NCBI GenBank assembly: GCA_017626555.1
Contig: JAGAIM010000142.1
Span: 1-48,052 of the forward strand
Length of the DNA: 48,052 nucleotides
Direction: 5' to 3'
Source: Bacteroidales bacterium
GTDB taxonomy: Bacteria > Bacteroidota > Bacteroidia > Bacteroidales > UBA932
Under the pieces are notes generated by a model. It worked only from the letters and a program-made list of their open reading frames with translations. It had not been told where the DNA came from and did not search any database. How positions within the stretch are numbered: the stretch's first letter is position 1; every line of letters starts with the position of its first letter. Shown here one piece after another: positions 12,611 through 34,804 of this stretch. Made by a program: the position numbers and the translations under genes.

Positions 12611-13222
12611 ATGGCACACGCAGACAATCTATCCATAGGAGTATTCATCGACGGCGGTTATTTCGCCAAGATAGATGAAGGCCTCGCTAAGAAGAATATG
12701 GGAAAGGTGAACGTGAAAGGGCTTTTCCAATATATTCCGGAATTGATAGCCAAGCATTTCTGCATTGACAGGAAACTGCTCTACATCACCGAAGCACATT
12801 ACTACAGAGGACGTTACAGAGCAGCGGATGCAGAGAACAGACATCTGTTGCTGGAAGAACGCAAGTTCGAGGATTCGCTCATTGAAAATGATATTATCTT
12901 CCACTACAAGCATCTGCGTCCGAACCCATCCGGCGGAGTGATAGAAAAAGGTGTCGATACCTGGTTCGCTCTGGACACATACGAAATGACTCTGTACAGG
13001 GAATTTGATTATGTCGTGCTTATCAGCGGTGATGCAGACCACGAAATGCTGGCAAAGAAACTCAAGGCTCTCAAGACCCATACTATACTGCTCACCTGGG
13101 ATCCTGCCAACACAGGCTCTACATCACGTTTCCTTAGCGAAGAAGTATGCACCCATATCGATATTATGAGACTTGCAGGAAAAGATCCTGAGTTATTGAA
13201 AAAAATAACTGACAATAAATAA
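12611..13222 (+). CDS. NYN-domain (PIN-like) protein
   Basis: This 203-residue cytoplasmic protein is of the NYN/LabA (DUF88) type, a PIN-like fold of predicted metal-dependent ribonucleases. The acidic active-site residues are visible: Asp in IGVFIDGGYF, Asp in VDTWFALDTYEM, and Asp residues in VVLISGDADHEML. The terminal TILLTWDPA strand fits the fold. An intrinsic terminator follows at 13244-13282, so it ends the run of genes begun at 7780. The RNA target is unknown. Confidence 0.88.
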   Translation: MAHADNLSIGVFIDGGYFAKIDEGLAKKNMGKVNVKGLFQYIPELIAKHFCIDRKLLYITEAHYYRGRYRAADAENRHLLLEERKFEDSLIENDIIFHYKHLRPNPSGGVIEKGVDTWFALDTYEMTLYREFDYVVLISGDADHEMLAKKLKALKTHTILLTWDPANTGSTSRFLSEEVCTHIDIMRLAGKDPELLKKITDNK

Positions 13223-13243
13223 ATTTGCAGAAATTTCCAATCC

Positions 13244-13288
13244 ACGCCCACCTTGTTCCTTACATTGGCACAAGGTGGGCGTAATTTT
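13244..13288 (+). terminator. terminator after the NYN gene
   Basis: A perfect 13-bp stem (ACGCCCACCTTGT 13244-13256 with its complement 13270-13282) around a 13-base loop is followed by AATTTT. It lies 22 bases past the stop codon of the NYN gene. Confidence 0.8.
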
Positions 13289-13334
13289 GCCACATAGAAA
13301 CACAATTTGTAAATTAATTAAATAAGAAAAGATT

Positions 13335-13487
13335 ATGTGGCTCGCAGTAATTATTTTTGTTTATCTGGCAGTGGAAGTGCTAAGTTATATCACAGGAGGA
13401 GCGGAAATGCCCAGCAACGGCAGAAAAGCGGAAATCAAGGATTACGGATTCGAAAATGGCAGTAAGAGATCGCCGGAGGCTGCCTGA
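13335..13487 (+). CDS. small membrane protein candidate, 50 residues
   Basis: A 50-codon ATG-to-TGA frame begins MWLAVIIFVYLAVEVLSYITGG, a single hydrophobic helix of about 18 residues, followed by a polar, Lys/Arg/Glu-containing tail (NGRKAEIKDYGFENGSKRS). It has its own space between the NYN terminator and the convergent gene at 13573, and a purine-rich AAGAAAAGATT stretch before the ATG. A hairpin (CGCCGGA 13471-13477 with TCCGGCG 13494-13500) overlaps the last codons and could end the message. The rest of the 13223-13572 gap shows nothing else. Expression is unproven. Confidence 0.45.
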   Translation: MWLAVIIFVYLAVEVLSYITGGAEMPSNGRKAEIKDYGFENGSKRSPEAA

Positions 13488-16921: not shown

Positions 16922-17021
16922 ATAAAGCGGCAACTGAACTACTAGTGACGTGCCACCCCCGGCTAGGGGGTGCCTCCCGAATGGGAGGCGGGTGTCACGG
17001 GTAGTTCAGTTGCCGCTTTAT
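16922..17021. repeat. foldback REP-like element (copy A)
   Basis: A 100-base cruciform-forming element lies between the convergent GH9 and phosphohexomutase genes. Perfect 21-bp outer arms (16922-16942 and 17001-17021) enclose TGAC (16946-16949) with GTCA (16994-16997) and two inner hairpins, CACCCCC-GGCTA-GGGGGTG (16953-16971) and GCCTCCC-GAAT-GGGAGGC (16972-16989). The 20-base core at 16951-16970 recurs exactly, inverted, at 30706-30725 inside metH. It may also serve as a bidirectional terminator here. Confidence 0.8.
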
Positions 17022-30063: not shown

Positions 30064-33000
30064 ATGATCGACATACAAAATGACAGGATATTGATTCTGG
30101 ATGGAGCGATGGGCACTATGATCCAGAGATACGGCCTTACGGAAGAAGACTACCGCAGAGGCCCGTTTTCTGGCTGCACAAAGGAACTCAAGGGCAACAA
30201 CGAGTGCCTGAATCTCACACATCCGGAAATCATAAAGGCCATACATCAGGAATACATTGCGGCAGGAGCCGATATCATAGAGACCAACACTTTCAGCGCA
30301 AATGCAATATCGCAGTCGGAGTACGGATGTGAGGAGTTTGCGGCTGAGATGGCACTAGAAGGTGCAAGGATAGCGCGTGAAGCGGCCGATGAGGCTCAGG
30401 AGATTGCGGCCAAGGTAGGGCTGCAGAGGAAGGTATGGGTAGCCGGAAGCATTGGTCCGACTTCAAAATCTCTGTCATTATCACCCGACGTGGCCGATCC
30501 TGCATTCAGGCCATATAGTTTCGATCAGATGAAGGAGGCATATCGTCTCCAGGCGGAGGCTTTGCTGAAAGGCGGTGCTGACATTCTGCTTATCGAGACC
30601 TGCTTCGATGCCCTCAATGTCAAGGCAGCGTTAGCCGGCATCCAGGAGATTGTCCGGGAGAGGCTGTTGACTACACTGGCCCCCTCCCAGTTGAACTGGG
30701 CTCCTCCCCCTAGCCGGGGGTGGCAAAATGCCAGTTCCGTCATACAGCCTCTCCCGGACATACCGCCAGTGATCATATCGGTGTCAGTGGGAGACAGGAG
30801 CGGGAGGACTCTGACAGGCCAGACACTGGAGGCTTTCTACACCTCGGTATGTCACTACCCTATCCTGGCTTTCGGACTGAACTGCTCTCTCGGAGCGGCG
30901 GAACTTATGCCGCTTGTCGAGGAAATCGACAAATGGTGCAGATGCGGAGTGAGTTGCTATCCGAACGCCGGACTGCCTAACGAGATGGGAGGATATGACC
31001 AGAGTCCGGAAGATATGGCCGCACAGATCAAGGCTATGGCATCCAAAGGACTTGTCAACATAGTCGGAGGATGCTGCGGCACGACTCCAACTCATATAAG
31101 AGCGATTGCCGATGCCGTAAAGGGGCTTGATGCCAGAAAGTTGTCCACAGATACGGATAATTCTGCGAAGAAGACATTGAAGGTCAGCGGACTTGAAGCT
31201 GTGGAAGTGGATGTGAAGCGGAACAACTTCACCAATGTCGGAGAAAGGACAAATGTAGCAGGTTCGCGCAAATTCGCAAGGCTCATAGCATCAGGAGATT
31301 ACGAATCCGGGCTCCAGATTGCTGCAAAGCAGATAGAAGACGGGGCCTCCATCATCGATATCAATATGGATGACGCTATGCTTGACAGCACAAGGGAGAT
31401 GGAGCGGTTCGTGAGATATATTTCCAATGAGCCTGCTGTCGCTAAGGCTGCTCTTATGATAGATTCATCTCATTGGGACACGATTCTGGCCGGTCTTGAG
31501 AATGCACAGGGCAAGTGCATCGTCAATTCCATAAGCCTTAAGGAGGGCGAGGAAGCATTCATCGAGAAAGCAAGGATAATAAAGTCATTCGGAGCGGCTA
31601 TGGTGGTGATGGCATTCGACGAAGAAGGCCAGGCAACCACATACGGGCGCAAGATCGAGATATGCGACAGAGCATACAGACTTCTTTCAGAGAAGGCCGG
31701 AATATCACCTGAAGACATAATATTCGATGTCAACATATTATCCATCGGTACCGGCATCGAGGAGCACGCCAGATATGGAATCGACTTTATCGAGGCAGTA
31801 AGATGGATCAAGGCGAATCTTCCGGGAGCACTGACATCCGGAGGAGTTTCCAACCTTTCATTCGCATTCAGAGGAAACAACGCCGTGCGCGAAGCGATGC
31901 ATTCGGCTTTCTTATACCACGCCATCAAGGCCGGACTGGATATGGCCATAGTCAATCCTTCTATGCTCCAGGTATATGATGAGATTGAGCCGGAACTGCT
32001 GAAATGCGTGGAGGATGTGATATTCGACACCGACTCCCAGGCCACTGAAAGGCTGATTGCAAAAGCGTCAAGGATGCTCGAGGAAAAGGATTCCCCACAG
32101 TCTGTCGAGACATCACCAGTCAAAGTCCCGTTGGAAGATAGGCTTAAAGAGGCCCTCGTCAAAGGAAGGTCAGAAGGTCTCGAGGAGGATCTGAAGGAGG
32201 CTATGGAACATTATGGCGGTGCACTGTCCGTCATAGAAGGGCCTCTTATGGCAGGAATGGAGACAGTGGGTGCCTTATTTGGAGACGGCAAGATGTTCCT
32301 GCCGCAGGTGGTCAAATCAGCCAAGGTTATGAGGGATGCCGTAGGTATTCTTGAACCGTTTATGGACAATGATGCCAGAGAAAACGAAAAGCCCAAAGTC
32401 GTCATTGCCACCGTCAAGGGAGACGTACACGACATAGGAAAGAACATAACCGGCATCGTGCTCGCCTGCAACGGCTTCGAAGTCTGTGACCTTGGCGTGA
32501 TGGTGGACAAGGAAACGATTCTGGCCAAAGCCGAAGATATCAATGCCGACATTATAGCCGTGAGCGGACTCATCACACCGTCTCTCTATCAGATGGAAGA
32601 AATCTGCAGAGATATGAAAGCCAGGGGAATGGCCAAGCCGCTATTCATCGGAGGTGCAACGACTTCAGCCCTTCATACTGCTGTCAAACTCGCCCCTATT
32701 TATGATCACGTATTCTATGGCGCAGATGCATCAGCAGCAGCTGTTATGGCGAAGAAATATATTCTGGATCCGGAAACATTCGAAAAGGAACAGCATTCCG
32801 AACAGGAAAAGATCCGAAGTCTGTACGGTTCTCGCGAAGAGAAGCCTGCAGCCGGCGGATGGACTATGCTTAAGACCGGATATGCAGCGGAGACATACGC
32901 AGAGACCCTTCCGGAAAGCATTCCATTCCTCGAACTTCCGATAGATGAGGCTATGCCATATTTCGACTGGAAGATGCTCCACGCCATCTGGGGAGTGAAA

Positions 33001-33708
33001 TACGGAAGCCGCGTTCCTGAAGTAGCCGAACTTATGCAACTGAGAAGAGACGCTGAAGATGAAGTTGCTATGGCAAATTTCAAAATAATGATTTCAGTAA
33101 AATTCTATCACGCATACTCAGACAATGATGATATCGTCATAAAGACCGGAAGCAAAGAGAGAAGGCTTCCTATGATGAGACAGGAAGGAGGAGCAATGCA
33201 GTCCCTGTGTGATTTTGTAAGGCCTTCAGGCAAAGGCGGACCGTCCGCATTCGGAGTATTTGCCATCAGCGTCAAAGCCAATGATGCACACGAAGAAGGC
33301 TGCTGCTGCCCTGCCTGCAGCAACAGATATGAGGATATGGTGGGGCGCACGGTGAGGATGACTATGGCGGAAGCGGCATCCACCTGGCTGGATAGAAAAC
33401 TAAAAGCAGAAATCAATGAGAATATGAAGATCATCAAGCCTGCTGCCGGCTATTCAAGTTGTCCGGACCATACTCTCAAAGAGGATATTATGAAATTGCT
33501 TCCTGAGGGAGGCAGACTCGGCATAAAACTCACTGAAAGTTTTGGAATGACACCGGAATCCAGCATCTGCGGAATGATATTCATACATCCTGAGGCTGCA
33601 TATCCTGATATCCGCCGCATTTCCCTGCAGCAGTACGAGGATTATGCACAACGCAGGGGTATGGATGAGCAGACTGCACGCCGCTTTCTCAGCCACCTGC
33701 TGAAATAG
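30064..33708 (+). CDS. metH: cobalamin-dependent methionine synthase with a repeat insertion
   Basis: This 1214-residue enzyme transfers the methyl group of methyl-tetrahydrofolate to homocysteine through cobalamin. All four modules are present: homocysteine/zinc domain (about 1-360; zinc Cys in GLNCSLG and GGCCGTTP), folate domain (about 385-640, NVGERTNVAGSRKFARL), B12 cap and Rossmann domains (about 670-900; cobalt-ligand His789 in DVHDIGKN) and the reactivation domain (about 930-1214; RPSGKGG and AAGYSSCPDH). Residues about 197-232 are foreign to the family and encoded by a foldback repeat (30651-30760) that keeps frame. A TATCTTTG box lies at 30034-30041; the ATG at 30064 gives the canonical N-terminus DRILILDGAMGTMIQ. 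Confidence 0.94.
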   Translation: MIDIQNDRILILDGAMGTMIQRYGLTEEDYRRGPFSGCTKELKGNNECLNLTHPEIIKAIHQEYIAAGADIIETNTFSANAISQSEYGCEEFAAEMALEGARIAREAADEAQEIAAKVGLQRKVWVAGSIGPTSKSLSLSPDVADPAFRPYSFDQMKEAYRLQAEALLKGGADILLIETCFDALNVKAALAGIQEIVRERLLTTLAPSQLNWAPPPSRGWQNASSVIQPLPDIPPVIISVSVGDRSGRTLTGQTLEAFYTSVCHYPILAFGLNCSLGAAELMPLVEEIDKWCRCGVSCYPNAGLPNEMGGYDQSPEDMAAQIKAMASKGLVNIVGGCCGTTPTHIRAIADAVKGLDARKLSTDTDNSAKKTLKVSGLEAVEVDVKRNNFTNVGERTNVAGSRKFARLIASGDYESGLQIAAKQIEDGASIIDINMDDAMLDSTREMERFVRYISNEPAVAKAALMIDSSHWDTILAGLENAQGKCIVNSISLKEGEEAFIEKARIIKSFGAAMVVMAFDEEGQATTYGRKIEICDRAYRLLSEKAGISPEDIIFDVNILSIGTGIEEHARYGIDFIEAVRWIKANLPGALTSGGVSNLSFAFRGNNAVREAMHSAFLYHAIKAGLDMAIVNPSMLQVYDEIEPELLKCVEDVIFDTDSQATERLIAKASRMLEEKDSPQSVETSPVKVPLEDRLKEALVKGRSEGLEEDLKEAMEHYGGALSVIEGPLMAGMETVGALFGDGKMFLPQVVKSAKVMRDAVGILEPFMDNDARENEKPKVVIATVKGDVHDIGKNITGIVLACNGFEVCDLGVMVDKETILAKAEDINADIIAVSGLITPSLYQMEEICRDMKARGMAKPLFIGGATTSALHTAVKLAPIYDHVFYGADASAAAVMAKKYILDPETFEKEQHSEQEKIRSLYGSREEKPAAGGWTMLKTGYAAETYAETLPESIPFLELPIDEAMPYFDWKMLHAIWGVKYGSRVPEVAELMQLRRDAEDEVAMANFKIMISVKFYHAYSDNDDIVIKTGSKERRLPMMRQEGGAMQSLCDFVRPSGKGGPSAFGVFAISVKANDAHEEGCCCPACSNRYEDMVGRTVRMTMAEAASTWLDRKLKAEINENMKIIKPAAGYSSCPDHTLKEDIMKLLPEGGRLGIKLTESFGMTPESSICGMIFIHPEAAYPDIRRISLQQYEDYAQRRGMDEQTARRFLSHLLK
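30651..30760. repeat. foldback REP-like element inside metH (copy B)
   Basis: Perfect 17-bp arms (30651-30667 and 30744-30760) enclose TGAC (30668-30671) with GTCA (30739-30742), ACTGGC (30675-30680) with GCCAGT (30730-30735), and two inner hairpins: CCCAG-TTGAA-CTGGG (30686-30700) and CCCCC-TAGCC-GGGGG (30706-30720). The 20 bases at 30706-30725 are the exact reverse complement of 16951-16970. It encodes about 30 extra residues within the metH frame, beginning LLTTLAPSQLNWAPPPS. Confidence 0.85.
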
Positions 33709-33820: not shown

Positions 33821-34804
33821 ATGAAAATATCAGATATATTGGCAGGCAGTACGAAGGCATATCCTTCACTTGAGATAGTACCGCCACTCAGAGGAATGAC
33901 CAAAAATGAACTTTTGGAAAGTATCGCTCCTTTTATGGAGTTCAGTCCCAAATACATTAACGTAACAAGTCATAGGGATGAATTTGAGTTCCGAGCCGAT
34001 GCAGACGGCTCATTCAGCCGGCACCTCGTACGCAACAGGATAAGCGAGACTACGGTATGCGCTGCAATTATGTCAAGATATGATATTGAGACTGTGCCTC
34101 ATATCATCTGTGCAGGCACTACTGCAGAGGAAATCGAAAGCAAACTGGACAATCTCGAATTCCTCGGCATCAACAACATCGTGGCTCTCAGAGGTGACAG
34201 TATGACCGGCGAGAAGCGCTTCACCCCGACTCCGGGCGGCTATAGATATGCCAGCGAACTAGTAGAAGGGATACGTAATTATCAGGGCAGTGCAAGTTAT
34301 CAGAGACGTCGCAAGGTTGAAAAGGATGCATCCGCACAATCGACAACTGAGGACAGATATTTCTGCATAGGCGTGGGCGGCTATCCGGAAAAACATTTCG
34401 AAGCGGCTAATATTGAAACCGACATAGCAAACCTGAAGAAAAAGATCGATGCCGGCGCTGACTATGTGATAACTCAGATGTTCTTTGATAACAAAGTTTA
34501 TTATGATTTTGTCCAAAGGTGCCGACAAGTCGGAATAACAGTTCCTATCATTCCTGGTCTGAAGCCCATTTCAACTGCAAGACAAGTAAATATGCTTCCA
34601 GAGTCATTCTCTTTGGATATACCATTGGAACTGACATCAGAGATAGCGAAGGCTGGAGAAGACAAAGATGCTGTTTACAACATTGGAACTGAATGGTGCA
34701 TCAGCCAATGCAGAGATCTGATTGCACACGGTGTACCTGCCGTTCATTTCTACACAATGGGCAGATCAAATAATATAGTCAGTATCCTTAAGGAATGTTT
34801 CTGA
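33821..34804 (+). CDS. metF: methylenetetrahydrofolate reductase
   Basis: This 327-residue FAD enzyme reduces 5,10-methylene- to 5-methyl-tetrahydrofolate, the methyl donor used by MetH encoded just upstream. Family motifs: SLEIVPP near the N-terminus (active-site Glu region), YINVTSHRDEF, LGINNIVALRGDS, YFCIGVGGYPEKH, DAGADYVITQMFFDN and IPIIPGLKPI. The insert near residues 150-180 (YQGSASYQRRRKVEKDASAQSTT) is somewhat long and polar. The adjacency to metH makes a functional pair; the 112-base gap leaves room for separate control. Confidence 0.95.
   Translation: MKISDILAGSTKAYPSLEIVPPLRGMTKNELLESIAPFMEFSPKYINVTSHRDEFEFRADADGSFSRHLVRNRISETTVCAAIMSRYDIETVPHIICAGTTAEEIESKLDNLEFLGINNIVALRGDSMTGEKRFTPTPGGYRYASELVEGIRNYQGSASYQRRRKVEKDASAQSTTEDRYFCIGVGGYPEKHFEAANIETDIANLKKKIDAGADYVITQMFFDNKVYYDFVQRCRQVGITVPIIPGLKPISTARQVNMLPESFSLDIPLELTSEIAKAGEDKDAVYNIGTEWCISQCRDLIAHGVPAVHFYTMGRSNNIVSILKECF

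Follow-up and report, generated by a model that had tools for sequence, protein, structure and literature searches.

The metH gene in the analysed window (the whole stretch of 48,052 nucleotides) carries a long DNA palindrome within its reading frame. This raises the question of what the element is, how it came to lie in the gene, and whether the residues that it encodes serve the protein.

Host gene and architecture of the insert

The metH reading frame runs from an ATG at 30064 to a stop codon ending at 33708 and is uninterrupted across the insert, as a sequence-only reading of this DNA had stated. The product has the Pfam domains S-methyl_trans (residues 10-352), Pterin_bind, B12-binding_2, B12-binding and Met_synt_B12; the S-methyl_trans (homocysteine methyltransferase) match crosses the insert, spending residues 10-352 on 283 profile positions. 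In short, 36 amino acids are added to an otherwise intact MetH. Alignment with human MTR covered MetH residues 6-200 and 235-400 and skipped the insert, leaving a gap between 4ccz residues 203 and 208. From this alignment and from the variation in loop length, the loop may be surface-exposed, which is a weaker prediction. A terminator scan within metH found none. The gene directly 3' of metH (33821-34804) presumably is metF, which it resembles.

Going inwards, the element consists of perfect 17-nt inverted arms (30651-30667 and 30744-30760, 76 nt apart), a one-base bulge, four further pairs, a small internal loop, a 6-bp stem and two hairpins (Table 1). A 131-nt stretch was folded at -72.4 kcal/mol, the mean of shuffled sequences being -44.5 kcal/mol (z = -7.7; 0 of 200 shuffles as low). 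The structured insert and its perfect 17-bp arms, as first described, are therefore real. The arms had also been taken to bound the element; the palindrome is indeed perfect over 17 bp, but the arms do more than mark the edge of the element: they form its stem.

Table 1. Features of the window. T1 and T2 are the repeat subtypes and R1 the core model described below.
Feature	Position	Strand	Basis
T1 copy, locus L045, 28-nt arms (93% complementary), between convergent ORFs	16922..17021	-	core match, arms
metH, the host gene, encoding a cobalamin-dependent methionine synthase of 1214 aa	30064..33708	+	open frame; Pfam
metH insert, a palindromic element of subtype T2 (residues about 197-232)	30651..30760	+	inverted repeat, fold, R1
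Left stem arm, 17 perfect pairs plus 4 past a one-base bulge	30651..30671	+	
Right stem arm of the metH element	30739..30760	+	inverted repeat, fold
Inner 6-bp stem, left side; partner 30730-30735	30675..30680	+	fold
Core hairpin 1, CCCAGT/ACTGGG	30686..30700	+	fold
Core hairpin 2, contains the repeated core CCCCTAGCCGGGGGTGG at 30707-30723	30703..30723	+	

Copies of the repeat and their spread

The 20-base core singled out in the sequence-only reading belongs to a repeat: all 20 bases recur at 17 other places of the same genome, and elements of the same type lie inside other genes. The 17-base form CCCCTAGCCGGGGGTGG, with at most two mismatches, was found at 26 places in the genome, 13 per strand, and its reversed control at none. 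A core model (R1), mostly sequence-based and built from 42 sequences, gave at least 27 clear matches and one weak match in this genome and at least 22 clear matches and one weak match in genome G377; these are lower bounds because 150 first-look candidates per genome were scored, out of 238 and 223 found, respectively. The match in metH (30670-30735) scored 62.6 bits, this copy being itself among the 42 model sequences. Copies measure about 100-130 nt, with a GC-rich core of two hairpins enclosed in a long stem. The RNAalifold consensus of alignment A1 contained only six pairs because the ends of the two subtypes were misaligned in it. Rfam, at its gathering score, had no match to 63,212 bases in six sources.

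The exact core pattern was present in 53 of 400 genomes of the genus, the genome of the window included. Among 393 genomes of the order (3 of the genus) and 149 of the family (11 of the genus), it occurred in the genome of the window only. As far as sampled, the family is confined to one genus of uncultured gut Bacteroidales, as judged by the exact core pattern, by which degenerate relatives elsewhere would be missed. Related metH loci came from Bacteroidales or Bacteroidia in 32 of 33 cases, many with titles naming ruminants and one being Candidatus Cryptobacteroides; the 33rd was a Bacilli record with a 27-residue match.

Subtypes and their coding bias

Two subtypes were distinguished by their ends, mostly CACGTC or CATGTC in T1 and AAAATG in T2. 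Within the genome of the window and G377, 9 of 13 T2 copies and 2 of 35 T1 copies (both in sufD) lay inside long genes (Fisher p = 1.9e-5). This tally comprised the clear R1 matches of both genomes minus the contig-end locus L048, a near-copy of L044; the weak matches (G000:C126 and G377:C74) were left out, L155 was entered manually as a T2 copy outside genes, contig-end loci L162 and L164 were excluded from coding judgements, and a 155-aa ORF at L243 was not taken as coding. A survey of neighbouring genes covered 22 of the 23 T1 copies of the genome, L282 being counted in the coding tally and not here: 15 were between convergent ORFs, 6 in tandem, none between divergent ORFs and 1 inside sufD. 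We keep sufD as a T1 host, with the caveat that the match of its ORF to the SUFBD core is incomplete (positions 69-228 of 232). T1 copies of other species also occurred in aroK, prmC and apbE, in an unevenly drawn set that yields no rate. At locus L150 (G000:C68, about 13030-13480), there seems to be a tandem repeat of the right half of a T1 copy together with the flank downstream of it.

Consensus cores, typed by hand, were open in three of six frames for T1, four for T2 with TAG and five for T2 with TAC, single copies varying. A core readable in four frames, or five in the TAC form, would explain why T2 is the genic type.

Host genes of T2

Besides metH, T2 was found in murB, argC, aroK, hemW and genes for a FolC-like Mur ligase, a THUMP-like methyltransferase and an RluA-like synthase; the names ArgC, HemW, FolC and RluA are putative, assigned from the sequences, and the domains are Pfam predictions. 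All 13 host ORFs scanned contained Pfam domains, located on one side of the insert only in the HemW- and RluA-like hosts. Inside genes T2 was translated in four frames, giving PPP(T/S)RGW, PYPGVGK, PLPGGGK and, in reverse, PPP(G/A)RGRG. One loop of aroK was occupied in four species, by T1 in one of them and by T2 in the other three, with two frames used. The simplest reading is therefore that insertion happened more than once, but the difference in frame could instead come from later indels. The murB gene of G377 holds two T2 copies. Its FolC-like gene (L281, G377:C64) also has a run of CHPDSS repeats far from the T2 insert.

At murB site 1, 30 loci were read, from 50 matching genomes of 57 searched. 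Six had complete T2 copies, two had remnants and one a related palindrome; 10 had inserts of the CHCEERSDVAI, CHSERSEES or CHFDxxxRVEK kind, two had other long loops, and in the remaining nine the loop was short (8-14 residues). In this genus, then, tolerant loops accommodate in-frame palindromes belonging to more than one family.

Palindromic repeats other than T2 were observed in frame in murB (L251-L253, L255, L259-L261, L263, L269 and L278) and in metH (L072). Their peptides are CHCEERSDVAI-, CHSERSEES- or CHFERS-like, and we take these to resemble translations of widespread REPs.

The metH loop across species

The residues at about 197-232 had been described as absent from the consensus of the MetH family. 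This holds for 46 of 55 distinct MetH rows, which lack the insert, but not for the nearest genome, SIG153, which has the same insert with substitutions of its own. Eight rows had the element or a remnant of it (judged by eye) and one had arms only, so that among related species the insert is patchy and not universal. Three insert-free rows had other features in the loop: an unrelated palindrome in L072 and other long loops in L060 and L080. All nine rows with element or arms fell in one clade of 26 (support 100/99), in which the inner forks are partly open; the tree omits six rows identical over the first 500 residues, L084 (another part of the protein) and L119 (the 27-residue Bacilli match).

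In RGIG7439 the metH core has the opposite orientation and is again in frame. This may reflect inversion in place or a separate insertion, the latter being conceivable because arms of the metH subtype recur in the FolC-like copy (by eye). In RGIG4217 (L088) the two arms are joined and the core is absent. This row is sister to those of the window and SIG153 (94/87), and RGIG1649, outside that group, shares the arms; L088 therefore reads as a loss of the core, with deeper forks open. Element-free relatives, copies across the genome and other host genes together bear out the earlier proposal that the element entered metH in frame at a tolerant loop. The mobility of the palindrome is inferred from this distribution.

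Flips and losses at intergenic sites

Three intergenic sites of one contig (loci A, B and C) were compared in 6, 5 and 9 relatives, respectively. At locus A, the outer ends of the arms were joined in SIG153 and the core was absent. Similarly, G169 had at locus B a perfect palindrome of the same arms, again with the core absent. At locus C, the core had one orientation in the genome of the window and SIG153 and the reverse in G169, within the same arms; in other relatives the site was empty (three), or held T2 (one), T1 with unrelated arms (one), another palindrome (one) or direct repeats (one). A different palindromic element was seen at the intergenic site of the locus C T1 copy in L179 (G403:C13). 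Template switching or hairpin cleavage could produce such flips and losses of the core.

Paired changes in the stem and possible selection on the insert

In the arms at murB site 1, 96.4% of cells were paired and 10 of 22 pairs had changed on both sides (shuffle mean 3.0; 0 of 500 shuffles reached 10; slid versions gave 0-2). This analysis used five of the six complete copies, the sixth being identical to one of the five. One of five covariation measures, the number of further pair types, was in no excess over shuffles (11 against 10.3; 199 of 500). In the metH arms 4 of 27 pairs had changed on both sides (10 of 500 shuffles reached 4; slid versions 0), in a comparison of only three of eight copies, which are few, inverted and decayed copies having been excluded. 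In the inner 6-bp stem, double-sided changes affected five of six pairs in murB and none of six in metH.

Stems maintained through paired changes are also what would be seen if the insert had been domesticated, its peptide or mRNA hairpin having come under selection for a function in hosts such as MetH and MurB. Between the genome of the window and SIG153, the metH insert had pS 0.268 and pN 0.042 (0.394 and 0.055 in the rest of the gene), and nonsynonymous changes were few (binomial 0.0079), so that the peptide could be in use. Similarly, the insert at murB site 1 was identical over 99 nt between the genome of the window and G377, with pS 0.44 in the 75 codons upstream. However, two other metH pairs gave binomial values of 0.21 and 0.18, and in 13 of 15 pairs of murB inserts pN lay within 0.05 of pS (one pair had no differences), upstream pN being 0.006-0.051. 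Patchy presence in related species, variable orientation and frame, remnants and losses point the same way. We consider domestication unlikely; the 36 MetH residues are most likely a tolerated passenger.

The core was more alike than the coding flanks in 6 of 10 orthologous comparisons (profiles judged by eye), namely murB of the window genome with L254 and L256, murB L264 with L266, argC, sufD, and metH with RGIG1649. It was no more alike than the flanks in murB of the window genome with L264, L265 and L266 or in metH with SIG153. Recent movement, interspecies exchange or structural constraint could each account for this conservation.

Origin of the arms

Arms were compared between loci using 21 T1 arms and 19 hand-picked T2 arms. 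The likeness of T1 arms was 9.89 against 8.85 in shuffles (sd 0.15; 0 of 300), nearby control pieces giving 8.40. For T2 arms it was 8.98 against 8.25 (sd 0.14; 0 of 300), a value raised by the presence of three murB and two aroK copies in the set. By eye, arm sequence is common to metH and the FolC-like copy of G377. Since the likeness between loci exceeds that of shuffles, the arms appear to be part of the element, diverging while they stay paired.

The arms might instead be host DNA, the core having inserted into the centre of existing palindromes such as terminator hairpins. Arms without a core at locus A in SIG153 (outer ends), locus B in G169 and metH in L088 would fit, as would the position of T1 copies, mostly convergent or tandem, where terminators are expected. 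Yet such an origin would not make the arms of separate loci alike, or those of the FolC-like copy and metH share sequence; L088 reads as core loss, given the arms in RGIG1649 (deeper forks being open), and a long palindrome in the otherwise short MetH loop is a priori improbable. We think this origin improbable as well. Insertion by inverted copying of the target, one arm being native and the other its new inverted copy, would account for arms that vary by locus and are nearly perfect; neither arm is visible by eye in the short loops of element-free MetH relatives, arms at separate loci are related and paired changes renew the complementarity, all of which make it very unlikely. Finally, an assembly artefact or a pseudogene is hardly credible, for although the genomes used are draft or metagenome assemblies, the element lies in the same loop of separate assemblies with substitutions of its own (SIG153 and RGIG1649; in opposite orientation in RGIG7439), the metH frame is open at full length and cysteines 274, 337 and 338 are invariant in the 28 aligned rows.

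Proposed movement and candidate mobilisers

Probably, the metH insert is a copy of a dispersed, non-autonomous palindromic repeat that moved as a hairpin and is tolerated as a passenger. Some activity would move the element in this form, and selection would remove most landings in genes. Copies surviving in genes would be those with a length divisible by three and an open frame, placed in a tolerant loop. The arms would be inherited with the element and would stay paired through correction templated by the hairpin or through selection for the stem. More tentatively, T2 might be a lineage adapted to genes, in which loss of the TAG makes five of six frames readable, the stem is repaired on the hairpin template, and the core flips or drops out in place; we hold this possible but doubtful. 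If so, it would provide a continual supply of in-frame loop variants in MurB, AroK and MetH.

As candidate mobilisers, 30 loci of Y1 transposases were examined, and no convincing copy of the repeat lay within 1.5 kb; the sole match was a chance match with three mismatches in L191. Y1 matches were present in 14 of 14 carrier genomes and 8 of 14 non-carriers. The RAYT-like Y1 gene of the window genome (L194, G000:C162) has GCCTGCTG...CAGCAGGC hairpins on either side, which perhaps are its own REP. Carriers G039 and G237 (the latter absent from the matched list) had no match to this RAYT at 1e-10. With repeat-free Y1 loci and a RAYT flanked by unrelated hairpins, a Y1/RAYT mobiliser is unsupported. 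The best matches to this RAYT were mostly in carrier genomes (by eye), a concentration explained equally well by kinship. Phages, plasmids and IMG/VR, searched as carriers, gave no match. Because the carriers are related species, the distribution alone also fits vertical descent with losses.

Comparison with known systems

The sequence-only reading had called a palindrome acting as a coding insertion unusual in bacteria. This is only partly right, since in-frame palindromes have been published for Rickettsia and several REP-rich genera. Rickettsia palindromic elements are about 150 bp long and lie in frame in unrelated metabolic genes, with 44 in R. conorii (PMC10969869). The present repeat is likewise a palindrome in frame in metH, murB, argC, aroK, a folC-like gene and others. 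By description, it differs in its phylum, in its locus-specific, co-varying arms, in the flip of its core in place and in its gene-enriched subtype.

Most GTAG and CGTC REPs lie between convergent or tandem genes and some inside ORFs, with an intragenic REP once at about the same recB site in related species (PMC3733652). REPs as described there measure 20-40 bp and leave a GTAG or CGTC unpaired at one end, and the Bacteroidales family is about 100 nt or more. Its core stretches are 60-73 nt, with arms of 17-28 nt in the two copies of the window. T1 has CGTC (in the copies of the window genome) or TGTC (in many copies of other species), of which the GTC is base-paired to GAC in the folds; in T2 the sequence there is AAAATG. 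Of the traits of MITEs, inverted repeats are present and no partner transposase was found among the Y1 genes. Enterobacterial ERIC and RU, 103-168-bp repeats reported inside genes too (PMC2759123), belong to a different phylum and are likened by description only. Nematomorpha mitochondria keep perfect inverted repeats in coding sequence (PMC6649704); in these, conserved native protein is encoded by both arms, whereas the Bacteroidales palindrome comes from a repeat family and is an extra insert of patchy occurrence. The titles and abstract openings of the open-licence papers listed contained nothing on the present family.

These results extend in-frame selfish palindromes past Rickettsia and the REPs to core enzymes of ruminant and hindgut Bacteroidales. 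Because several species show the arms, the orientation and the loss of the core at orthologous positions, the family offers a direct approach to the questions of how such elements move, how genic stems stay complementary and how proteins gain loops. The repeat works like Rickettsia palindromic elements, which were compared by description, and intragenic REPs, and appears to be a separate family. The insert is real, and apparently a member of a new family of a known kind, unusual in its co-varying arms, its in-place core flip and its gene-enriched subtype.
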